NCBI RefSeq assembly: GCF_001748225.1 | Contig: NZ_BDFE01000009.1 | Span: 62,001-126,000, forward strand | Length of the DNA: 64,000 nucleotides | Direction: 5' to 3' | Source of the DNA: Desulfoplanes formicivorans | Lineage (GTDB): Bacteria; Desulfobacterota; Desulfovibrionia; Desulfovibrionales; Desulfomicrobiaceae | Shown here: positions 18,176 to 31,442 of the stretch, piece after piece | Layout of the letters: the number at the start of each line of letters is the position of its first letter | Position numbering within the stretch: the stretch's first letter is position 1 | Notes under the pieces: generated by a model | Databases searched by the model: none | What the model was told of the DNA's origin: nothing | The model's input: the letters and a program-made list of their open reading frames with translations, nothing else | Translations under genes and position numbers: made by a program

Positions 18176-19129
18176 ATGCCTAAATTAACCAGACGCCGGG
18201 TTGTCCTGGCAAAGACTGAAGCGACATACGGGGTCGATGCATCGCCTGATCCGGCAACAGATGCTTTTATTTGCAACGTCTCGTCAAACATCACGCCTTC
18301 TGGTGAAGAGGTTACCAGGGATTATGTACGTGACGTTTTGAGTCCGATCGGGTCTGTCGTGACGACAAAAACTGTTGCTCTAACGATACAAACTGAACTC
18401 AAGGGCGGCGGCATGGAGGATACGGACATACTGCCGCCTGAATATGAGCCGCTGCTTCTGGCATGTGGCATGAAAAAATCAGGCGACGCGGCAACAGGCT
18501 GGGTTTATCAGCCAGAGTCCGACCCTGCCAAACACGACAGCTGCACAATATACTACTATCAAGACGGCCTCCTTCACAAGGCTATTGGCTGTCGCGGGTC
18601 GTTTAAGATCGATGCTTCTGTCAGCGCTTTGGGAACAATCGAGTTTTCAATGACAGGTCTGTGGGTCGATCCTGTGGACGAGGCTATGCCATCACCGGTT
18701 ATTGCGGATATTGTACCCCCGATCGTTGCGGGCCTCGGGCTTACTGTTGGCGGGTACTCGCCTGTATGTAACGCCCTTTCGTTTGACCTTGGGGTATCAA
18801 CGAGCCAGCGCAAAGATATCAATTCTTCCACTGGAGTGACTGGTATCGAGATCCAGTCCAGGACGCCGACTGGATCAATTGACCCGGAGGCCGTTACCTT
18901 GGCCGAGTTCAACCCGTGGACCGCCTGGTCTGGATCGACCAAAGCAGCCATTTCTGCAACCGTAGGATCAGACATCGGCAACCGGATCAGCATATCAATC
19001 CCCAAGGCTCAGTACGGGGTCCCAGCTTACGGAGACCGGGATGGAATACTGACGTACTCACTCGCGTTCACCGCAACAATCGACGATGCCGGGACCGGGG
19101 ATGATGAAGTTGTGCTGACATACGCGTAA
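18176..19129 (+). CDS. Major tail tube protein (non-contractile tail)
   Basis: A 317-residue beta-rich protein directly before the tail chaperones and the tape measure. The N-terminus (RRRVVLAKTEATYGVDASPD) is typical of siphovirus-type tube proteins of Mu-like prophages. No sheath gene accompanies it. The C-terminus carries repeats of beta strands (YSLAFTATIDDAGTGDDEVV). It has its own ribosome site (AGGAGTATATC). Confidence 0.85.
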   Translation: MPKLTRRRVVLAKTEATYGVDASPDPATDAFICNVSSNITPSGEEVTRDYVRDVLSPIGSVVTTKTVALTIQTELKGGGMEDTDILPPEYEPLLLACGMKKSGDAATGWVYQPESDPAKHDSCTIYYYQDGLLHKAIGCRGSFKIDASVSALGTIEFSMTGLWVDPVDEAMPSPVIADIVPPIVAGLGLTVGGYSPVCNALSFDLGVSTSQRKDINSSTGVTGIEIQSRTPTGSIDPEAVTLAEFNPWTAWSGSTKAAISATVGSDIGNRISISIPKAQYGVPAYGDRDGILTYSLAFTATIDDAGTGDDEVVLTYA

Positions 19130-19170
19130 AACAAGGGCGGCGTGTGCCGCCATCAATCAAGGAGATACAC

Positions 19171-19575
19171 GTGGCAAGACGACTTGGAGGCAAGTGCAGC
19201 CTGAAGATTGAAGATAATATATCCGGTGACAGTGTAACCATGTACTACACGCTGCCAACGAATAAACAGCGGCTGGCGTATCAGAACGCATCTGTTGAGC
19301 GGAGTGGCGGGCGACTCATCAACCGGACAATCGAGGCGCGGCAGAAATACGGGCTGGAGATCTTGGTCGGCGTCAGGGCCGGAGACCTGGAAGTTGAGCA
19401 GGACGGGAAATGGGTTCCCCTGGTAACTGATCCAAACCAGCCTGGGTACCGCGAAGACTGGAAAGATATTGTGCTGGAGCAGGCGTCTGACCTGGTCGAG
19501 CTGCTTGCCGCCCAGGTGTTTGATGTGTCTGCCAGGGTTGCCCGCGACCAGGGCGAGGACGCAGAAAAAAACTGA
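19171..19575 (+). CDS. Tail assembly chaperone, short form (G)
   Basis: A 134-residue protein; GTG at 19171 chosen after AAGGAGATACAC, although the frame is open from 19144. In long-tailed phages this first chaperone binds the tape measure protein during tail assembly. It ends in GAA AAA AAC TGA, a canonical slippery site followed at once by the stop; a fraction of ribosomes should shift to -1 and make the extended GT form (to 19856). Confidence 0.85.
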   Translation: MARRLGGKCSLKIEDNISGDSVTMYYTLPTNKQRLAYQNASVERSGGRLINRTIEARQKYGLEILVGVRAGDLEVEQDGKWVPLVTDPNQPGYREDWKDIVLEQASDLVELLAAQVFDVSARVARDQGEDAEKN

Positions 19576-19622
19576 CGGAAGATCTGAAGGCTATTCGGGC
19601 CGGGCTCTGCACCCCGGCCCGA
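19566..19622 (+). promoter_or_regulatory. Programmed -1 ribosomal frameshift site
   Basis: The heptamer A AAA AAC (19566-19572) is in the correct phase for tandem -1 slippage, and the zero-frame stop TGA is the next codon (19573-19575). A perfect 10-bp GC-rich stem, TCGGGCCGGG (19595-19604) with its complement (19613-19622), lies 22 nt downstream. The -1 frame then stays open for 94 codons without any Met codon. Confidence 0.9.
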
Positions 19623-19856
19623 CAGGAGCAGTGCCGGAAAGACAATGGCGGATGGCTTGCTGCCATCTGTAAGGGCTGCAAGTCAAAGAGGCCTGAAGAT
19701 CTTCATCCATACACGCACAAGTTGTTACGTATAAAGGCCTTGCAAGACGGCGGGTATCCGCTGGAGCGCGATGATTTAACACTGGAAGAATGGCAGGATC
19801 TGGGACGGATCAGATATGAACTCGAACACCGTAAAGATCACCCTGCAGGTCGATGA
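19572..19856 (+). CDS. Tail assembly chaperone extension (T part of GT fusion)
   Basis: A 94-codon open frame in the -1 phase, entered at CTG 19572 through the slippery heptamer; the full GT fusion from 19171 would be 228 residues. The frame has no ATG codon and no ribosome site, so translation by frameshift is the simplest reading. The T part contains two Cys pairs (GLCTP...QCRKDN, ICKGCKS) and a charged C-terminus, LTLEEWQDLGRIRYELEHRK. It overlaps the tape measure start by 41 nt. The layout G, GT, tape measure matches lambda-type tails. Confidence 0.85.
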   Translation: MTEDLKAIRAGLCTPARQEQCRKDNGGWLAAICKGCKSKRPEDLHPYTHKLLRIKALQDGGYPLERDDLTLEEWQDLGRIRYELEHRKDHPAGR

Positions 19857-22800
19857 CAAAGGGTCTGTCAAGGTCAAGTCCATGGGTAAGGCCCTGGACT
19901 CAATGGGCCAGGACGCGACCAGGGCGGGGTCATCTGCCAGCAAGTCCATGGCTAGCCTGAATAGCCAAATCGGCAGGACGACCAAAGGCGCCGAGCTGAT
20001 GGCCAAGGCCATGAAAGGGGCAATGGCCTATTTTTCGGTCAGGGCGCTGGCTGCGTTTGAAACATCCATTGCCAGCGTGGGCATGAGCTTTGAGCACACC
20101 ATGAAGACCGTGCAGGGTGTGAGCCGGGCTACAGATGAGCAGTACAAAGCACTGACTGCTGCGGCCCGAGAAATGGGCGAAACAACGGAGTGGTCTGCCA
20201 CACAGGCAGCCGAGGCGTTGAAGTACATGTCCATGGCCGGGTTCACCGTTGAACAGTCCATCGCTGCCCTGCCCGGCGTGTTGGACCTGGCTACAGCCGG
20301 GAACCTTGACCTGGGCCGTGCATCGGACATCGTGACCGACAGCCTTACAGCCATGGGCCTTGGGGTTGAGGATCTCGCGCACTTCAGCGACGTGCTTATT
20401 GCGACAACGACCAGGTCAAATACGAACATCGAGATGATGGGGGAATCGCTTAAGTACGCTGCCCCTATTGCTCATAGCATGGGCTATGAGATTGAGCAGG
20501 TATCTGCCCTGCTTGGCACGCTGGCAAACGCGGGTATTAAAGCGTCGGACGCCGGTACGGATCTGCGGCAGGCCATGCTGCGCAACAGCAAGGCTGCTGC
20601 AGAGCTCGGAACAAGAAGCGACGATCTGATCGGCACAATCAAGGCCGCAAGAGATGCAAACTGGGATGCCACCAAGGTTCAGGAAGAGTGGGGTATTATC
20701 GCATCAAAATCTGTCCTGGTTTTGATGGAGCAGATTGATCAGTACGAAAAACTGTACGGACAGCTGCAAAATGTAGATGGAGCAACATCTGCTCTTGCCG
20801 GGTCCATGCGTGACGACACGCTCGGCGCGTGGAAGGAATTCAAGTCTGTTGTTGAGTCCGTAAGGTTGGACATTTTTGAGAGACAGTCGAACGGAGTAAA
20901 GACAGCACTTAGGTTTTTATCTGGAGAGATCAGGGAGAATAAAGATTCTATTGTGTCATTTGGTGAAGCCATTGTTGACACCATGGAAGCATCCACATGG
21001 GCTGTGGAGACACTGGCGCTTTCAGTTAATGGACTTGGAGGAGCGTTTGACGCATTTAAGCTCGGTATTGCAGAGGCAGAAGAATTCTTGCTCGATCTAT
21101 ACACATCTATACCAACATGGATGCTGCCGGAAAGCATGGAGCTCTCTGCGGTAACAATTGACGCGCTGCGCGAAACCATCAGGCAGACAAAAGAAGAAGC
21201 AACAAAGGACATAATCGACACAAGCACTACAATTGAAGGCCTCCACGGAAAGTTCGAGAGCCTGAGGGACGCCCTGCGCGATACAGGAGACACAGGCAAG
21301 CAAAGCATGGCCAACATAGAAAAGGCCGCCAAGTCAACCGCAAAGAGTGTAGATTCAGCAATAAAGAGTGTCGCCAAGGCGGATAGCTCGTACATAAAAA
21401 GCTCTAACGATATATACAAAAAAGGCCTCCAGCGCCGTGGAGATCTGTTGACAAAATGGGAGAAGTCCCAGCTCGATTCCCAGGAGGACCTGGTCAAAGA
21501 ATTTGAGGAGCTCACCGGCGACCAGTACGAATTCGAGAGGCAGGCTATCCGCGAAAAAGCCAGGCTCTACGATGATGCCGGGGCGGACAAGGTTAAGGTC
21601 GCGGAGTGGGCCAGAAAGGAAATCGAAAAAGTAAACAAGCGGGAGGTTGATGACGCTGAGGATGCGTTCCGGCTCAAAGCGTTGGCTGGAGACGATTTTT
21701 TTGATGGTCTGAAGGCTGGATATGACGACAACCTCGGGTACGCAAGGACATGGGGAGAAACAGGGTACGACATTGTCAGCGATTTTTTCCGATCGTCCCG
21801 TGGCGCCGCGTCTGATCTTCTGTTTGACGCGATCAAGGGAGACATGGATTCACTCGGTAGCTACTGGGAGTCTTTCTGGGACTCCATGCTGAGAAGCATG
21901 ACTGACTATGTAACCCAGATGGCAACAGAGTGGGCAACATCGAATCTCATCTCCTGGGGTGCATCATTTGCCGATTCTCTTCTGACATTCCATACCGGGA
22001 CTACAGGCATCAAGCAGGATGAATTGCTGGCCATCCTACAGCAGGGGGAAATGGTCATCCCGGCAAAACAGGCTGAAACGATAAGGCAGGCGATTGATAA
22101 CGGCGGCATGTCTGCGGATGGATATTTTGATGCGGTGTCAAATGCCGTCAGCATCGGAACCAGGGCGTCTGGCTATGTTGCGGGGTCGTGGGACAGTCCG
22201 GATATTGCCGGCCATGCCATTGGGGCCCTGCAATCGTCTGTTCTGGGTGGTGTCGCAGCAGGCATCAATAATTTCTCCGCAGTATCTAACATGGGCAAGG
22301 CATTGCAAAATGCCGGATATGACATTTCTTCCTCAGCGATCAAGGATGCGGCGTTTGATCAGGCGGTGTCGGGATTCGTCTCGGCTGCAATTCCTGGGTT
22401 TGCTGGAACGTTTATGGGTAATCTAACATCTGATGTTCTAGGCGTATCCGATTATGCAACCGCCGGAAAGATCGTTGGATACGGTTTGTCTGTTCTGTCT
22501 GGTGTTAACATCCCTGGAGCAATGATTGCCGCGTTGTCACCTGTAACCGCGCTGGCCATATCGAGCATTGCTGATGCCATGGACCTGCGATCAGACGAAA
22601 CGCTCAAGGATGCGCTTGAGGATAAATATGGCCATATTACAGGGCGCAGGGCGTATGCTGCTGCACAGGACAAACTCTCCGAGATAGGAGCAAAGATATC
22701 CGAATACGGATCTCTAGCTGCGTACGGGTTTGACCCAGAGAATGCGACCTCCATTGTCGGATACCAGCCGTTCGGTGTCGGCGAAGTGTCGCTCAACTTG

Positions 22801-23436
22801 GAAACAGGACGGATATCAGACTCTCTCGGACGCGTTGCTGTTGGGCCGTACGGTTCTTTTGTTGATGTCGGATCTCTCGCCGAAGCTGCAGGGCTTGTCG
22901 GCGGAGGCCTTGGAGATGCACTTGGGGATATCTCAGGGTCTCTTGATTCTCTTGGAAGTCTTGGAATTGACACGGATTCGCTGTCAAAAGCGTGGGCAGA
23001 TGCAGCCCTTGAAGCCGCAAAGGAGGCTGGATGGGGGAGCGGGTCTGGTAGCGGAGGGTACGGACCGTCAGGAGGCCTTGGAAGCTCTGGCGGCTTTGGC
23101 CCGTCAGACGCTGCCGGTGGCGGCCCGTCGAGCGGTGGCAGCACGTCGAGCACAGGCGGAAACTCAGGATATGGCCGGTACGCTGGTGGCCCAGTCTCCC
23201 CGGGATATATGTACGAGATCAACGAGCGCGGCCAGGAATTGTTCATGCCCGGGGTTGATGGCCGGATCATGACTGCCGACGAGACCAAGGCCATGCTGAC
23301 CACGCTGAAGCAGATAGCGGCTGGCGGTGGATCAGATATGGCGGCAGCTCTGTATGCCATTGCAAAGTATTGCCAAAAATCAATGAAGATCCTTGATAGG
23401 TGGGATCACATCGGGATGCCGGAGGTGCGTGCATGA
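19816..23436 (+). CDS. Tail tape measure protein
   Basis: Determines tail length and helps DNA entry. 1206 residues. The TP901-type core is clear at residues 95-260 (EMGETTEWSATQAAEALKYM, LDLATAGNLDLGRASDIVTD, LLGTLANAGIKASDAGTDLR). Long helical regions (490-620) follow, then a C-terminal half rich in Gly/Ser, with a low-complexity stretch at about 1075-1130 and a terminal GGPVSPGYMYEINERGQELF motif common at ends of tape measures. Its stop overlaps the next start by ATGA. Confidence 0.95.
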   Translation: MNSNTVKITLQVDDKGSVKVKSMGKALDSMGQDATRAGSSASKSMASLNSQIGRTTKGAELMAKAMKGAMAYFSVRALAAFETSIASVGMSFEHTMKTVQGVSRATDEQYKALTAAAREMGETTEWSATQAAEALKYMSMAGFTVEQSIAALPGVLDLATAGNLDLGRASDIVTDSLTAMGLGVEDLAHFSDVLIATTTRSNTNIEMMGESLKYAAPIAHSMGYEIEQVSALLGTLANAGIKASDAGTDLRQAMLRNSKAAAELGTRSDDLIGTIKAARDANWDATKVQEEWGIIASKSVLVLMEQIDQYEKLYGQLQNVDGATSALAGSMRDDTLGAWKEFKSVVESVRLDIFERQSNGVKTALRFLSGEIRENKDSIVSFGEAIVDTMEASTWAVETLALSVNGLGGAFDAFKLGIAEAEEFLLDLYTSIPTWMLPESMELSAVTIDALRETIRQTKEEATKDIIDTSTTIEGLHGKFESLRDALRDTGDTGKQSMANIEKAAKSTAKSVDSAIKSVAKADSSYIKSSNDIYKKGLQRRGDLLTKWEKSQLDSQEDLVKEFEELTGDQYEFERQAIREKARLYDDAGADKVKVAEWARKEIEKVNKREVDDAEDAFRLKALAGDDFFDGLKAGYDDNLGYARTWGETGYDIVSDFFRSSRGAASDLLFDAIKGDMDSLGSYWESFWDSMLRSMTDYVTQMATEWATSNLISWGASFADSLLTFHTGTTGIKQDELLAILQQGEMVIPAKQAETIRQAIDNGGMSADGYFDAVSNAVSIGTRASGYVAGSWDSPDIAGHAIGALQSSVLGGVAAGINNFSAVSNMGKALQNAGYDISSSAIKDAAFDQAVSGFVSAAIPGFAGTFMGNLTSDVLGVSDYATAGKIVGYGLSVLSGVNIPGAMIAALSPVTALAISSIADAMDLRSDETLKDALEDKYGHITGRRAYAAAQDKLSEIGAKISEYGSLAAYGFDPENATSIVGYQPFGVGEVSLNLETGRISDSLGRVAVGPYGSFVDVGSLAEAAGLVGGGLGDALGDISGSLDSLGSLGIDTDSLSKAWADAALEAAKEAGWGSGSGSGGYGPSGGLGSSGGFGPSDAAGGGPSSGGSTSSTGGNSGYGRYAGGPVSPGYMYEINERGQELFMPGVDGRIMTADETKAMLTTLKQIAAGGGSDMAAALYAIAKYCQKSMKILDRWDHIGMPEVRA

Positions 23437-25428: not shown

Positions 25429-25764
25429 ATGAGAGGCATACCGAAACGATTTGGGACTGCTCGTGATGTGGAAATATGCGTATCCATGGCAGAGGAAGGA
25501 GATCTGCCCAAAAACGGCGTGATCAAAAAATTGCAGGCAATGTTGGCCACCGGCAAGGTGTACCAGAGGGACAAGGTTTTAGAGTCGATCGATGATGCAG
25601 ATGGCCCCGAGCCTGAATACAGGGTCATGGAAACAGAAGGACAGGACGGCAATACAGAGATCGTGCAATACAGGCTCGAAGACAACCCTGCATCTGCGTA
25701 CGCCAGAATCGGTTTGGACGCAGAAACGATCAGGCAATACATTGACCGACTGGGAGGAGAATAA
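25429..25764 (+). CDS. Small protein before the variable tail protein
   Basis: A 111-residue protein; ATG 25429 follows CGGAGGTAGT. It overlaps the variable-protein start by 1 nt (TAATG). It is acidic and helical with no membrane segment; it does not have the four-helix, basic character of the DGR accessory protein Avd and lies upstream, not downstream, of the variable gene. It may be a tail fibre assembly factor; function unknown. Confidence 0.6.
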   Translation: MRGIPKRFGTARDVEICVSMAEEGDLPKNGVIKKLQAMLATGKVYQRDKVLESIDDADGPEPEYRVMETEGQDGNTEIVQYRLEDNPASAYARIGLDAETIRQYIDRLGGE

Positions 25765-26786
25765 TGAGAAGACAATGGCGAAACGAGGATAGCGCCGAGA
25801 CGAAAATTCTGGCGGAGACCCTTTCCCTGGCCCAGACCCTGCGAGGCATGCAGGGCGTGCCCATTCTCACGGTAAACGATGACGGGGACGGTGTTGTCAT
25901 CAACGCCGAAACCGTGGTCCCCATGATATCTGGCGACGCCCATACCAGCTTTGTGCTGGAAGAAGGCCTTGAGATTAAAGATCTTGACATCGGATCGCTG
26001 ACTCTCGGACAGAACTATGGCGTGTATGTGTGCGACGACGGATCAAAATACGGCGAGGCCGTCATATCTGCAAACACAACAGCCCCGGACGGGTATACGG
26101 CGACAAATTCAATCAAGATCGGAGGGTTCCACTACGGTCGTGTCAGGACGTATGACCAGAGGTTCGACAAAACAGCTACGCTGGACGTACAGGTTGTCCC
26201 AAACTCTGTATGGGATCTGATATGTCGCCCGGCATGCCTTGACCCGGCAGGAATGGCCAAGGTCGGCGGCGTTTGGGTCGATATCTATCTCAATTCTGAA
26301 GACGGGACTCAGTGGCCGGAAACCATCCCGCAGTCTGTGTATGGAGCCGTTCCGCTCACAGGGACAGAAGGATATTCCTATTTTGACTATGCCCAACTTG
26401 CTGCAAATGCCGGCAAGCGTCTTCCGACATACCAGGAGTTCCTTGCGTACGCATACGGGGTGCCAGCAGGAAACACCGGGGCGTCAGGCCGGGTGAACAC
26501 GGGCAGTCAGGACTGGATGGTCAGCTGCGCGAACATCGACCAGCCGAGCGGGAATGTATACCAGTTGACCGGGAATCTTGGTTTCGGCGGAGGATCATCG
26601 TGGGCGTCACACGACGAGGGAGTTGACAGCGCATACGACCATGGCGATTTATACGGAAGTGTGTACCAGCTCAGAGTCGGCGGCGACTGGGGCGACCCTG
26701 CCGGGGCCCGCTGCGCGCTCGCGTACAGCACGGTGTGGAACGTGGACGGGAACGTGGGCCTGCGCTGCGTCAGCGATCCACTGTAA
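25764..26786 (+). CDS. Diversity-generating retroelement variable protein (C-type lectin fold tail protein)
   Basis: A 340-residue tail protein, probably the receptor-binding tip. The N-terminal 150 residues are a fibre/attachment domain; residues about 155-340 are an FGE-sulfatase/C-type-lectin domain (GKRLPTYQEFLAYAYGVPAG, NVYQLTGNLGFGGGSSWASH). The end is the classic variable-region frame of DGR targets: YQLRVGGDWGDPAGARCALAY ... NVDGNVGLRCVS, where the family has GG.W..GARC...Y....N....GFR. The codons of the last 40 residues are unusually GC-rich with few A, as expected if adenine positions have been mutagenised. A truncated DGR reverse transcriptase follows at once. Confidence 0.88.
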   Translation: MRRQWRNEDSAETKILAETLSLAQTLRGMQGVPILTVNDDGDGVVINAETVVPMISGDAHTSFVLEEGLEIKDLDIGSLTLGQNYGVYVCDDGSKYGEAVISANTTAPDGYTATNSIKIGGFHYGRVRTYDQRFDKTATLDVQVVPNSVWDLICRPACLDPAGMAKVGGVWVDIYLNSEDGTQWPETIPQSVYGAVPLTGTEGYSYFDYAQLAANAGKRLPTYQEFLAYAYGVPAGNTGASGRVNTGSQDWMVSCANIDQPSGNVYQLTGNLGFGGGSSWASHDEGVDSAYDHGDLYGSVYQLRVGGDWGDPAGARCALAYSTVWNVDGNVGLRCVSDPL

Positions 26787-27323
26787 ACTGTAATCTGGAC
26801 ACCTGTTGGTGCACTGACGTCGCAAGTTATCGCCAATGTTTATCTGGACAGGCTTGACCACTTTGTAAAGGACGCCCTCGGCGTCAAGCGATATGTCAGA
26901 TATATGGACGATACCGTGATTGTTTCCAACGACAAGGCGGGGTTGAGGCAAACGCTTGAGCGCATCAAAGAGTATCTCGCTGCAGACCTGTCCCTGCGCC
27001 TCAACCCAAAAACAAGGATATACCCAGCATCACAAGGTGTTGATTTTTGCGGATACCGCATCTGGAAAACCCACATCCTTCCCAGGAAGCGGACCGTCAA
27101 GAAGACAAGGCGCAGGATGAAGGGTTTCGTGCATAGATATGCAAACGGGACGATATCTGCGGAGACGATCAGGCAAAGCCTGTCGAGCTGGCTCGGATAC
27201 ATGAAGCACTGCAATGGATACAGAACGACAATAGGAGAGCTCAAGCGCATTAGCCAGGAGTGCAGGCGATGCGGTGTCAATTTTGGCGAACTGTTTTGGT
27301 GGTTGCGAGATAAAACCGGATGA
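26787..27323 (+). pseudogene. DGR-type reverse transcriptase, 5' half deleted
   Basis: Reading from just after the variable-protein stop, 178 residues are clearly the C-terminal half of a DGR (Brt-type) reverse transcriptase: TPVGALTSQVIANVYLDRLD (26799-26858), then the catalytic YMDD box at 26901-26912, and a basic thumb/C-terminal region (FCGYRIWKTHILPRKRTVKK). The finger and first half of the palm, with the first catalytic Asp, plus the template repeat and any avd gene, are absent. It has no start codon near the 5' end except an ATG inside YMDD. The fragment is therefore a remnant, and the retroelement should be inactive on its own. Confidence 0.9.
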
Positions 27324-27340
27324 CTGTGGTGGATGATTTT

Positions 27341-27421
27341 CACACAAAACGAGATTTTGAGAGGCCGCAAATTTTTCTCGTTTTATGTGCAAATTTTTCT
27401 CGTTTTACGTGACCCCTTACA
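27341..27421. mobile_element. Right end of the prophage with MuA-type binding repeats
   Basis: Two contiguous 22-bp repeats, 27367-27388 and 27389-27410, differ by one base; each contains TTTTTCTCGTTTTAYGT (Mu end-site consensus in complement has RYRCGAAAA). A third, inverted related copy lies at about 27341-27361. In Mu the R1 and R2 sites are likewise adjacent 22-bp units near the end. The element would end with ACCCCTTACA at 27421. The flanking 5-bp duplication cannot be tested because the left end is outside. Confidence 0.8.
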
Positions 27422-27652
27422 TCTGTTTTGCACGGATCGTCTGTCAGTCTGATCCTTTCTTGGACTTGCTGTTCATGACTTGCCAGGAATGTTCGCATTA
27501 TCCGCAAAAGCCTTTAGAAATCTGGAGGCTGCTCATGAATGGGCTGCCTCATTCGTGGCCAGGATAATGCGATGCATCTTTATTGTGTGTGGGCTTTGGT
27601 TGGTGGCTCTGAAGGGTCGTCACCAGGGAGTGGCGGGTAGCTATCGGGTGGA
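27422..27652. other. Host sequence between prophage end and repeat copy 1
   Basis: No convincing gene. Short frames on both strands look like chance or debris; the minus strand shows interrupted peptide-like stretches (ATNEAAHS, KAFADNANIPGKS) that may be relics of an older gene. Confidence 0.4.
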
Positions 27653-27825
27653 ACGGCATCTCCCCTATCTGGCTTTCCGGAAAATCGGCTCGAGCGTTGG
27701 TCTGGAAAGATCTGAAACAGGTCTGTTGTGGGCGAGGGGAACTCTACCCCAAATCCACAAACAATCACCTGAAAAGAACGTTGCATGGGCGTCAAGAAAA
27801 GCGACAACTTCTTTGACACTTACCG
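27653..27825 (-). repeat. Dispersed repeat, copy 1
   Basis: Reading the minus strand, this segment aligns over about 150 nt with 37015-37170 on the plus strand. Shared blocks include TTTTC.GGTG.TTGTTT.TGG, ACAACAGA and CCAGATAGGGG. In one frame both encode V.VK.VV....DAT.FSG.CLW. The two copies are in inverted orientation 9.4 kb apart. Confidence 0.75.
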
Positions 27826-27832
27826 TCGCCAT
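27665..27832 (-). CDS. Putative last-cassette ORF inside the dispersed repeat
   Basis: A 55-residue frame whose ATG (27832) lies inside the attC core (GTTATGGC) and which covers repeat copy 1. The peptide MATVSVKEVVAFLDAHATFF... is similar to a frame in the second repeat copy. It may be a small cassette gene or only a frame through a non-coding repeat; no function is known. Confidence 0.35.
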   Translation of the reverse strand: MATVSVKEVVAFLDAHATFFSGDCLWIWGRVPLAHNRPVSDLSRPTLEPIFRKAR

Positions 27833-27990
27833 AACGGCCCGCGGATGAGCGAGCGGTGGCCGCGGGGGCAAGTTTGCTTGAACAAGCGGATGGTATGTGC
27901 GGGCCGTTATTGCCGGCGCGAAGCGTCCGACAACAACGCCTCAAGAACCGGCGGCGTTTACGCCATCCGAGTTGCTTGACTTGTTAGGCT
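27828..27990 (-). repeat. attC-like recombination site A
   Basis: On the minus strand the site runs from GCCTAAC (27983-27989) to GTTATGGC (27828-27835), 163 nt, with internal inverted repeats (GGCGTAAACGCC; CGGACGCTTCGCGCCGG). It follows the small membrane-protein cassette, whose reading frame ends inside it, as is typical of integron cassettes. Confidence 0.75.
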
Positions 27991-28459
27991 CTAGTTGTTC
28001 CAGCTTTTCATCGATTTCTCTTATTCTATCGGCAGGCGGAATGCTTTTATCTACTTCCTGGACTACAGCAAGCCCCTTGAACATGTGATAAAGGCAACCA
28101 ACAAACCCCACCACCCCTAAAACTGGAATTATTGAACCAAAACTTAACCCTAGTGCGAGCCAAATGAGCCCCTTAAAGAGTGAGCGTAAACTTTTATATA
28201 TAATCCCTGTCGCGATATAGTTTGCAACTTGCACATTATTCTCATGATGGGCTTTGAGGCCAACGTATTTATCCCGTAGGTCTCTTAAATAGTTTATTTC
28301 GTTTTCTGTAGACCGTTGAGAAATAACTTTTCCGGATAAAGCCGAAATCCTCTGACCAATCACAAGCACCAGCCAAAACAATCCTGAACCCAAAGCGCCT
28401 TGAATTATCAATGGCCATTCCAGTATTGTGTTTATAAGTTCAGTCACTTGATACTCCAT
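27941..28459 (-). CDS. Integron-cassette membrane protein, unknown
   Basis: A 172-residue protein starting at ATG 28459, only 6 nt after the attC core GTTAGGT, the usual cassette geometry. Predicted membrane segments are at about 18-35 (IIQGALGSGLFWLVLVIG) and a pair at about 94-125 (LFKGLIWLALGLSFGSII, LGVVGFVGCLYHMF), with a charged helical section in between (RSTENEINYLRDLRDKYVGL). The C-terminus reads into the attC site. No family recognised. It lies next to a membrane-anchored nuclease-like cassette, so a shared defence-type role is possible but unproven. Confidence 0.75.
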   Translation of the reverse strand: MEYQVTELINTILEWPLIIQGALGSGLFWLVLVIGQRISALSGKVISQRSTENEINYLRDLRDKYVGLKAHHENNVQVANYIATGIIYKSLRSLFKGLIWLALGLSFGSIIPVLGVVGFVGCLYHMFKGLAVVQEVDKSIPPADRIREIDEKLEQLEPNKSSNSDGVNAAGS

Positions 28460-28465
28460 TTTGTA

Positions 28466-28538
28466 ACCTAACGGCCCGCTTTGCGGCAATTTTGGAGCGC
28501 AGCGGAAAAGTTGTCCGACAGCACGTCTTGTTAGGGGC
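28466..28538 (-). repeat. attC recombination site B (short, canonical)
   Basis: 73 nt with the standard design on the minus strand: CCCTAAC core overlapping the stop codon of the preceding gene (28530-28538), a folded-strand stem with GTCGGACAACTTTT and TTGCCGCAAAGCGGGC segments, and the GTTAGGT core (28466-28472). Recombination is expected between G and TT of the last core. Confidence 0.88.
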
Positions 28539-29397
28539 GGTATTGATACTCATTCTTTAAATCATCCAGCGTGACAACATGAAGTTTTACGTTCACATTG
28601 TATCTATCAAGATAACGCGATAAACGTTCTTTTACTCTACTTGCATTTACCTCTGGGTTGTCTACGACTGCCATAAAGTGAATTACTAATTCTTTTGAGT
28701 CTATGCATTTTAGTTGGCTCGCAATTAACTCAGATTCAAGTAAAACCCTATCTAGTCTCAAAGGGTTTACATGCTTATTTCTGAACAACTTGACCTCTAC
28801 TGCGTGAATTTTGTTTTTGTCTATTGCCAGACCGTCAAATATTACTTTGCGTCTGCTAGGGGTTTCAAATCGTACGTCAGTTTTAAATTCGAGCCCCATG
28901 TCTTTAGACAGTTTCATGATCGAAAGCTTTTCTGCTAAGGAGACATTAGCCATCAAAGATGCGTGACGCTCTGAATTTAATACAGAACTTGCTGAATGTT
29001 TGGACGAAGCAGACTTGCTTGAAGTTTCTTGAGGTTCAGTGTCGTCACCAGATGTCCCGGGTGCATTCTCGTCAGTTGAGGATGAATCTTCGGCTTCCTC
29101 AACCTCTTCTCTGAGCTTTTTTTCTTTCTCTTCAGTTGTAGCCTTACCAAATGACTTTAGAAAATTATCTTCATTTTTGTAGTCAGATGGGGCGTATAAA
29201 ACTTTATGGTTAAAATTTAATGTTAAGAAGAATATGCCGACTAGAAAAACAGGGAACAGCATTAGAAACCAAATATAGATACCTTGATTTTCAGACTCTA
29301 TAAAGGGCAATACTGTTGTGCCACTGATTTCTGCAATTGCAGCAAATATTGCAATTACCGTCAGAGGGTTTTTAATGTGTCCAATTTTCTCTACCAA
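28531..29397 (-). CDS. Membrane-anchored PD-(D/E)XK nuclease-like cassette protein
   Basis: A 288-residue protein. Two membrane segments at about 11-33 and 40-60 (NPLTVIAIFAAIAEISGTTV; IYIWFLMLFPVFLVGIFFL) put the rest in the cytosol. A Ser/Glu/Asp-rich linker (85-140) leads to a C-terminal nuclease-like domain (about 150-260) with VIFDGLAIDKNKIHAVEVKL, the D-x(n)-ExK signature of PD-(D/E)XK endonucleases and NERD-like domains. The stop codon lies within the attC core. It starts 24 nt after an attC core (GTTAGGGGC). Membrane-linked nucleases occur as effectors in phage defence; this role here is inference. Confidence 0.8.
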   Translation of the reverse strand: MVEKIGHIKNPLTVIAIFAAIAEISGTTVLPFIESENQGIYIWFLMLFPVFLVGIFFLTLNFNHKVLYAPSDYKNEDNFLKSFGKATTEEKEKKLREEVEEAEDSSSTDENAPGTSGDDTEPQETSSKSASSKHSASSVLNSERHASLMANVSLAEKLSIMKLSKDMGLEFKTDVRFETPSRRKVIFDGLAIDKNKIHAVEVKLFRNKHVNPLRLDRVLLESELIASQLKCIDSKELVIHFMAVVDNPEVNASRVKERLSRYLDRYNVNVKLHVVTLDDLKNEYQYRP

Positions 29398-29416
29398 CTC
29401 GTTTTCCTTTAGGATT

Positions 29417-29579
29417 GGCCCCTAACGGCCCGCGGTTGAATGGTGGCCGCAGGGACAAGTTTACTTGGACCTGTGGATATCCGCTCGATTCGCTTGTTGT
29501 GAGGCTCTTTGCGCCGAGCAACAACGCTAAGCTCACCTGCCGAAGTGCAACGAGGTCAGGTGAAGCAATTTGTTAGCTA
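29417..29579 (-). repeat. attC-like recombination site C
   Basis: About 163 nt between AGCTAAC (29572-29578) and GTTAGGGGC (29417-29426) on the minus strand. It holds two stem units: CACCTGACCTCG/GGCAGGTG near the gene side and the shared long module CCAAGTAAACTTG...GCGGCCACC...CCGCGGGCCGTTA also found in sites A and D. Confidence 0.78.
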
Positions 29580-29581
29580 GA

Positions 29582-29824
29582 TTATTTTATTAATTCTTTT
29601 GCTTTTGAGGCCAATCCAACCCATTTTGCACATGAATCAAATATACTTTCACTTTCCTCTTTTGTTAAAAGAGTCTGTAGAGCAAACAACATTGTTGATA
29701 CAAAAATTAATAAATCACCTGGAGTTGAATTATTATTGACTTCTAATAGAATAGATACTGGTTCGTTTTTTGAACATTTTTTAATGTAGAATAGAAATCC
29801 CGGTCCTCTGGACCGGGTCAGAGT
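29582..29824 (-). pseudogene. Short start-less cassette ORF
   Basis: An open frame of 80 codons without an ATG near its 5' end (the first in-frame Met comes after about 48 codons). The peptide has a convincing protein-like run, SILLEVNNNSTPGDLLIF and LLTKEESESIFDSCAKWVGL, ending just before the attC core. It may start at CTG 29821, be a 5'-truncated gene, or be frameshifted. A perfect 8-bp hairpin (CCCGGTCC, 29799-29817) lies at its beginning. Confidence 0.5.
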
Positions 29825-29857: not shown

Positions 29858-30084
29858 ATCTAACGGCCCGCGGATGAGCGGTGGCCGCGGGGCAAGTTTA
29901 CTTGGATCTGCGGACATCCGCTCGATCCGCTTGTTGTAAGGCTCTTTGCGTCGAGCAACAAGCGGATGGTATCCGTGGGCCGTTGTTGCCGGCGCGAAGC
30001 GTCCGGCAACAACGCCCACATCACAGGAGGCAAAAGCTGAGCGAAGCGGTGCTTTTGACTTCCTGTGCATGTGTTTGTTAGCTC
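29858..30084 (-). repeat. attC-like site D, apparently two sites fused
   Basis: On the minus strand from GAGCTAAC (30077-30084, containing the stop of the ATPase gene) to GTTAGAT (29858-29864), 227 nt, much longer than usual. It reads as a 75-nt attC (stem CACAGGA/TCCTGTG around CGCTTCGC) directly joined to a second long unit identical in type to sites A and C. The most likely origin is loss of the gene between two sites. Confidence 0.75.
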
Positions 30085-31352
30085 GTTTCCTTAAAGATTG
30101 ATGGCCGTGCATTCAAGTAAGCAACAAACAGAGAATCTTTAAATCGATAGTAACGCTCTCTTATTTTAACAATTTCTGCACCGTAATCGTCTGTTACCAG
30201 ATGTCCCACAAATTGACTTGGATTATCGACACCGTTGTCAATAGCTTTTTTATATGCTTCTGCTGTATGTATCTCTAGCTCGCCAGCCTGTACTTCAGCT
30301 AGAGCCTTCAATACAACTTCCCTTTGCCTTGAGGATGCAACTGCTTTTTTATATCGTCCCTCTAAAACAGGGTCTGTTCCTGATTCCGCGATTTCTGCGA
30401 GAGTATGCTCTATATCGGTTGCAGAAATGTATGTATCTCCATTTCTATAGGCCATTCTCAATGCGTACTTTCCAATGAGGTGGACCATATAAGGGTGACC
30501 CTGAGCTAGGTTGATTACTTTATTAGTAGCATTGTCATCAAATCTAATAAAGTCATTAATGCTCGCTTCTGCTCCCCGAATAATTTCTTTCAGCTCATCG
30601 TTATCCATTGCAGGCAAATGAATAATTCCACCAGCAAAAAGCCTGTCCGATGATGCATGTTCTTTCATTAATTCTTGAATATCGTGAGCCACACCAACGA
30701 TACAAAATTTAACGCCTGGTACATTTGTTGCCAGTGCTTTTAAAAAAGATGCAAACCCAGTCTTGTTTTGTATCTGATCGAATTCATCGATAACAAAAAG
30801 CAGTCCATTCTTGGCCATTTTTTGTTCAATTATGGCGCTAACGACGTTTGTAAAAACAGTCTCTACATCGTGATCTGGTTGGGACGTTTTTACTGCTGTT
30901 TCAGTAGCCTTTTCCCCGCCTAAAGATGTAATCCCTATATTGAATTTGGGCTGATACTTTTCTAGAGATTTTCTAGCCTTGGGAATATCGTAAGACCAAT
31001 CTGATAAGCAATCTTTATTGGTAAGTAGCTTTTCCAATAGTTCTTGGTGCGTAGAAATACTTTTTCCACACGCAAAGTATATTGGCAAGAAATCCAGCTT
31101 TTCATCAACATCGAGGCCAACTTTAGCTAGCAGCTCATTGTTACCAGTCGATATGTTTATGACCTGTCGTGAAAGCGACGACTTTCCGATTCCTCGATTC
31201 CCTATAATCGCGATATTTGTTCCTTCAGAAATCAAAGCGTAGTAGCAATCTTCAACTGGCCTTGTTCTACCTGCAAATCTATCGGCATCGGTTATTTCTT
31301 TTGCAGGAAAGAACGCGTTCTCAACTTGTGTAATTGTTGGTTTGCTTGCCAT
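30078..31352 (-). CDS. Orc1/Cdc6-like AAA+ ATPase, first integron cassette
   Basis: A 424-residue protein; ATG 31352 chosen because CAAGG stands 7 nt upstream (in-frame ATGs also at 31373 and 31406). Residues about 25-60 contain FAGRTRPVEDCYYALISEGT followed by Walker A IGNRGIGKSS; Walker B is LLFVIDEFDQ (about 190-199) and a sensor region follows (KFCIVGVAHDIQEL). A lid domain and a C-terminal winged-helix-like part (about 330-424) give the Orc/Cdc6 or STAND-type plan. Such stand-alone ATPases are frequent in integrons and defence islands; function is not known. The stop codon overlaps the attC core. Confidence 0.82.
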   Translation of the reverse strand: MASKPTITQVENAFFPAKEITDADRFAGRTRPVEDCYYALISEGTNIAIIGNRGIGKSSLSRQVINISTGNNELLAKVGLDVDEKLDFLPIYFACGKSISTHQELLEKLLTNKDCLSDWSYDIPKARKSLEKYQPKFNIGITSLGGEKATETAVKTSQPDHDVETVFTNVVSAIIEQKMAKNGLLFVIDEFDQIQNKTGFASFLKALATNVPGVKFCIVGVAHDIQELMKEHASSDRLFAGGIIHLPAMDNDELKEIIRGAEASINDFIRFDDNATNKVINLAQGHPYMVHLIGKYALRMAYRNGDTYISATDIEHTLAEIAESGTDPVLEGRYKKAVASSRQREVVLKALAEVQAGELEIHTAEAYKKAIDNGVDNPSQFVGHLVTDDYGAEIVKIRERYYRFKDSLFVAYLNARPSIFKETS

Positions 31353-31397
31353 GTTTTTGCCTTGATAGTTCATTTTATTGAATTTACACTCTCGTAG

Positions 31398-31442
31398 AGC
31401 TAACAAGTTATTATGTGGTTTCCTGCTAACTCCAGGAAACCC
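31398..31442 (-). other. Probable attI region of the integron
   Basis: Between the first cassette and the integrase gene. On the minus strand a GTTAGCTC core (31398-31405) marks the cassette boundary, and a hairpin GGTTTCCTG / CAGGAAACC (31418-31442) carries a second GTTAG in its loop. Position, two cores and divergence from intI fit attI. A TTGACA at 31450-31455 could be the -35 of the integrase promoter. Confidence 0.6.

Follow-up and report, generated by a model that had tools for sequence, protein, structure and literature searches.

The locus described here is very probably a G/GT tail assembly chaperone pair, carried by a Mu-like prophage and dependent on −1 programmed ribosomal frameshifting on the heptamer A AAA AAC for expression of its second member. 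It lies in a stretch of 64,000 nucleotides of Desulfoplanes formicivorans DNA (hereafter “the window”), and the pair is present in single copy in the genome concerned (3.0 Mb, 26 contigs). A lambda G/GT-like −1 frameshift had been proposed in an initial annotation, and this reading is supported by the position of the genes, conservation of the register and of T, replacement of the heptamer between clades, selection and the structural model of G. The features are listed below by window coordinate and strand, with the basis for each in parentheses.

18176 to 19129 (+): tail tube protein gene, upstream of G (PF18906 Phage_tube_2, E 3.3e-29).
19159 to 19164 (+): Shine-Dalgarno sequence AAGGAG of G, 6 nt before GTG 19171 (read directly).
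19171 to 19575 (+): G, the zero-frame gene, with a GTG start and encoding a 134-aa tail assembly chaperone-like protein (read directly; homologues; fold matches).
19566 to 19572 (+): slippery heptamer A AAA AAC, in phase with G (read directly; relatives).
19573 to 19575 (+): zero-frame stop TGA of G (read directly).
19572 to 19856 (+): T, the −1 frame domain, 94 codons plus TGA (19854 to 19856), with four cysteines (alignment; dN/dS; model).
19816 to 23436 (+): tape measure protein gene (PF10145 PhageMin_Tail, E 8.4e-40; tape-measure PHROGs).

The initial annotation had described an in-phase A AAA AAC with TGA as the very next zero-frame codon, followed by a 94-codon −1 frame lacking ATG, and all of this was borne out in the window. 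T begins with CTG 19572, which overlaps the TGA stop of G. It contains two TTG codons and no ATG, and no ATG, GTG or TTG is found in the −1 frame upstream of the middle of T. Gene callers that need one of these three codons near the overlap would miss T. The predicted G-T fusion comprises 228 amino acids (134 + 94), and T shares its final 41 nt with the tape measure gene, whose ATG falls within them. Three hallmarks of G/GT are found together: a gene pair flanked by the genes for the major tail (tube) protein and the tape measure, a second open reading frame (ORF) that overlaps in the −1 frame without a usual start of its own, and an in-phase slippery heptamer close to the 3′ end of G. Note that the earlier description of the second frame as lacking methionine holds for the window and not for the family, since two relatives carry ATG in the −1 ORF: L015 at codon 6 of T, and L016 upstream of the slip site, with none in T before the domain tail.

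The surrounding prophage is of the Mu-like transposable type, with a Mu transposase, Gam, GemA, a Mu-type portal and F and I proteins. Upstream of the pair lie genes for the Mu-type transposase, Gam, GemA, portal, F-like protein, protease, capsid, tail terminator and tail tube. Two other features of the region were recorded. An Mtd-like gene (mtd_2nd; 25764 to 26786, +) is directly followed by part of a reverse transcriptase (26817 to 27323, +), consisting of the C-terminal half with YMDD and covering RVT_1 profile positions 126–205 only. Together these look like a diversity-generating retroelement whose reverse transcriptase has lost its front part; no template copy was found when 26300 to 29600 was searched for direct repeats. 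Beyond the prophage tail genes, a STAND-type ATPase gene (nSTAND1, E 6.6e-12) occupies 30078 to 31406 on the opposite strand (−).

Relatives were collected from 297 related genomes, of which 9 matched, the window's own included (L003–L013), and from viral contigs (L014–L030), to which further viral contigs were added by alignment search. A phylum-wide search matched 18 of 395 genomes, again counting the window's own. No relative of G or T was found by tblastn against 50,697 phage records, and the query P0002 had no relative in genome_contigs. One 6-kb contig carries two G-T copies approximately 2.3 kb apart (L006 and L012, G230:C34; L006 includes unknown bases), perhaps two misassembled prophages.

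The same −1 register from G to T was found in 62 of the 66 loci with T, redundant copies counted; in the other four, G is either broken (L043 and L044) or absent (L065 and L067). T is 88% identical to the window in L015 and 86% in L016, and G likewise forms an alignable family of homologues. The two comparisons with the window gave dN/dS values for T of 0.078 (L015) and 0.077 (L016), with a range of 0.077–0.112 among the three closest sequences. The corresponding value for G, close to that for T, was 0.084 in both comparisons; pairs L017/L019 and L018/L024, whose sequences were not codon-aligned, were omitted from the G calculation. Of the T substitutions from the window, 23 of 38 and 37 of 59 fall at the third codon position of the −1 frame. 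By these sequence comparisons, purifying selection acts on T in the −1 frame, at a dN/dS of about 0.08, and conservation of that frame, whose loss across relatives would have counted against the initial annotation, is kept. A frame break caused by sequencing error or decay, with T unexpressed, has no specific support, the nearest to it being the broken G genes of L043 and L044. Given the register common to 62 of 66 loci and the dN/dS of T, this explanation can be given next to no credence.

Junctions were classified after leaving out every locus with a junction identical to an earlier one, together with L044, L065 and L067, for which no G was found in the right register. Among the resulting 49 distinct junctions, 28 contain an in-phase X XXZ ZZN heptamer, compared with 4.8 hits expected (38 in-phase heptamers per 6679 codons of family G bodies, applied to 839 junction codons). 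The 28 are divided among A AAA AAC (6), G GGA AAC or G GGA AAG (8), A AAA AAA (2; L030 and L034), A AAC CCT (3) and C CCT TTN (9). The other 21 have C CCT TCG (6), G GGG GAG (3), a start codon at the G stop (7) or none of these (5), the last with no recognisable frameshift signal. L003, L015, L016, L018 and L024 share the A AAA AAC of the window, at the corresponding position. Cognate two-tRNA re-pairing is impossible on C CCT TCG, the only such sequence at six junctions; it is conserved in L008–L010, L041, L042 and L047, where L013 has C CCT TTG. G GGG GAG resembles GGGGGAA, a motif reported to be common in SEA-PHAGES data (PMC10885494, as far as its accessible text goes).

The letters of the heptamer differ between clades and the register does not change. 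On a tree of T (L030, L047 and L063 omitted) the heptamer classes cluster, requiring 14 changes as opposed to a mean of 32.4 after shuffling, so that the junction classes can be accounted for by a small number of replacements at a single site. Exchange of one heptamer for another of different letters, in register, is predicted by selection for two-tRNA slippage and is not predicted by slippage of the transcript or by a start at CTG. The former would place the fusion in an edited mRNA, by RNA polymerase slippage on the seven consecutive A residues at 19565 to 19571. It was rejected on the heptamers of the relatives, many of which have GGGAAAC, GGGAAAG, AAACCCT or CCCTTTN in the equivalent position and no long homopolymer, and it is very unlikely. 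Reinitiation at CTG 19572 was also rejected: in L016, L017 and L019 the G stop is TAA and the −1 codon is CTA, and the CTG is therefore not conserved.

CTG reinitiation is one form of a broader alternative, in which no fusion is made and T is produced on its own, by translational coupling, from a start within G or at its end. The overlap of CTG 19572 with the TGA stop lends itself to this, as does one clade in which 7 of 10 junctions have an in-frame ATG or GTG where G stops, mostly with a good ribosome-binding site. For the window, this alternative is improbable, if somewhat less so than polymerase slippage: besides the change of CTG to CTA, the −1 frame offers none of the usual start codons before the middle of T, and a separate start would leave conservation of the heptamer unexplained. 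Programmed frameshifting thus remains the preferred reading of the window.

The clade itself (mostly family f12) deserves separate description. X XXZ ZZN is missing from the vicinity of the G stop at all ten of its junctions. At seven, T has an in-frame ATG or GTG no more than 10 nt before that stop, compared with 0 of the 39 other junctions, and in these loci (L051, L054, L056–L059 and L063) the −1 register is the same. Most of the T starts follow GGAGG-like ribosome-binding sites. L051 and L061 also have G GGG GAA there, which leaves some ambiguity; L053 and L060 have neither a start codon nor G GGG GAA. Nine of the ten junctions form one group in the T tree (support 99/93), beside the A/G-type clade. 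Judged from sequence, this clade is most simply read as initiating T separately, and frameshift and separate start appear to be interchangeable within the G-T family. Our broader proposal is tentative, at slightly less than an even chance: a single G-T family in which T would be fused by −1 frameshifting in most clades and separately started, with translational coupling, in another. The covalent GT fusion is held to be central in lambda. If the proposal is true, the fusion is dispensable and not obligatory in the G-T family, which then offers a natural experiment on the reasons for which phages retain frameshifting.

Folding of the RNA 3′ of the heptamer gave the following elements, also listed by window coordinate and strand.

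19595 to 19604 (+): 5′ arm of a perfect 10-bp stem (folding).
19613 to 19622 (+): 3′ arm of the same stem (folding).
19576 to 19592 (+): 5′ side of an interrupted lower helix, at 19576–78, 19584–86 and 19591–92 (prediction only).
19625 to 19636 (+): 3′ side of the interrupted lower helix, at 19625–26, 19629–31 and 19634–36 (prediction only).

The perfect 10-bp GC stem noted initially at 22 nt from the heptamer is present, with the qualification that it consists of nine G-C pairs and one outer A-U pair; its loop is 8 nt. Residues 19573 to 19640 fold at −29.6 kcal/mol (z = −2.17), with 5 of 200 shuffled sequences folding as well, as do 1.5% of codon-resampled controls; downstream RNA structure is a further G/GT hallmark found in the window. 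In the predicted fold, lower helices pair 19576–78 with 19634–36, 19584–86 with 19629–31 and 19591–92 with 19625–26. These helices are weak and their pairing varies among the closest relatives. If they form, the structure may start 3 nt after the heptamer and not 22 nt, so that the remark that the spacer is longer than typical applies to the inner stem only. Among the three closest sequences, synonymous variation was found at 0 of 5 inner stem codons, compared with 37 of 66 elsewhere (P about 0.016). The outer pair of the stem is changed from U-A to C-G in L016 and is a C-A mismatch in L015.

Downstream folding was compared with codon-resampled controls at 27 junctions (L030, with A AAA AAA/AAT, was excluded). 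P values of 0.05 or less were obtained for 11 of 15 junctions with A AAA AAN or G GGA AAN and for 0 of 12 with A AAC CCT or C CCT TTN. The combined z over all 27 was 4.7, a value that overstates the evidence since the loci are related. An internal Shine-Dalgarno stimulator had no support against the same type of control (combined z 0.96, 27 junctions), and a search of Rfam returned only one chance match, on the opposite strand.

The identity of G was approached through a structural model (pLDDT 85.3, mixed fold). Several BFVD matches of this model carry the name tail assembly chaperone, with probabilities of 0.99–1.00 for the three best of those and a best E value among them of 2.1e-3. The best matches among solved structures were 3fgx (Z 7.8), 5ir0, YqbN (3klu, Z 5.0) and the HK97 chaperone (2ob9, Z 4.0); all are below Z 8, a level that a common arrangement alone can give. 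Foldseek found no PDB match for the G model at E ≤ 0.001. G had no Pfam match, 20 family G members had no credible one, and the single PHROGs match was weak (E 0.081) and of unknown function. No profile match placed either G or T in a catalogued Pfam or PHROGs chaperone family, and neither had a credible sequence match in the PDB. Taken together with gene position, the fold matches, each of them weak in score alone, identify G as a probable chaperone. The pair adds a chaperone family without a match in Pfam or PHROGs.

For T the model has four helices (pLDDT 88.5). In 24 aligned T sequences, a set from which L030 was excluded, positions C13, C21, C33, C36, G26, G61, L69, W74, D76 and L77 are invariant. 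The T homologue of L030 lacks the cysteines and follows a run of A residues. The four conserved cysteines suggest a metal site in this helical domain, which may bind metal; a metal-binding T domain is not described in the accessible parts of PMC5009743 or PMC2628397. T matched nothing in Pfam or PHROGs, and 24 family T members had no credible Pfam match. The T model had no Foldseek match in the PDB at E ≤ 0.001 and no VIA match with Z ≥ 2 among 47 chains, which does not show that the fold is new.

In the proposed mechanism, most ribosomes would read G (134 aa) and terminate at TGA 19573. A minority would slip by −1 on A AAA AAC, the two tRNAs re-pairing with AAA AAA, and the pause at the stop codon and the downstream hairpin would aid this slippage. 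Slipped ribosomes would translate 94 further codons, which would give the fusion of 228 aa. If lambda is a guide, G made in excess would cover the tape measure protein, to which the T portion of the fusion would recruit tail tube subunits. A_AAA_AAC and G_GGA_AAC show low efficiency in E. coli, but IS elements very likely make use of them (PMC4066793, in its accessible text); such motifs suit a low ratio of GT to G.

A −1 frameshift at such a locus is known: in the accessible portions of the sources it is described as widespread at this gene position in tailed phages (PMC5009743) and proposed for Mu-like siphophages (PMC4378225). The family, the cysteine-bearing T domain and the history of the junction are new, and were not found in print in a limited literature search covering few subscription papers. 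Heptamer turnover, together with the start-codon clade, allows tests of which elements of the frameshift signal are maintained by selection and of the need for the fusion.

Several known systems can be compared with the pair. The HK97 tail assembly chaperone (2ob9) and YqbN (3klu) show a weak fold likeness to the G model, with sequence identities of 13% and 9%, and their Z scores are too low to prove kinship. PaMx73, a D3112-like Mu-like siphophage, is alike in its Mu-like genome, flexible tail, overlapping genes (ORFs 35/36) and putative −1 shift; its slip site is T TTT TTC, 43 codons before the stop, and its second ORF has its own AUG (PMC4378225, accessible text). The Mu/FluMu gp41 tail assembly genes occupy the same position, and frameshifting there is cited to Xu et al.; unlike the shift in the window, that of Mu is −2 (both from the accessible text of PMC2628397). 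G of the window has no Pfam match and therefore none to a Mu gp41 family. The slippery heptamer of lambda is G GGA AAG. The window differs from lambda gpG/gpGT in its A AAA AAC and in the four conserved cysteines of T, and no sequence relation was detected. In organization the two systems are alike, with a chaperone gene before the tape measure gene, a −1 shift near its 3′ end and T in an overlapping frame (PMC5009743, accessible text).
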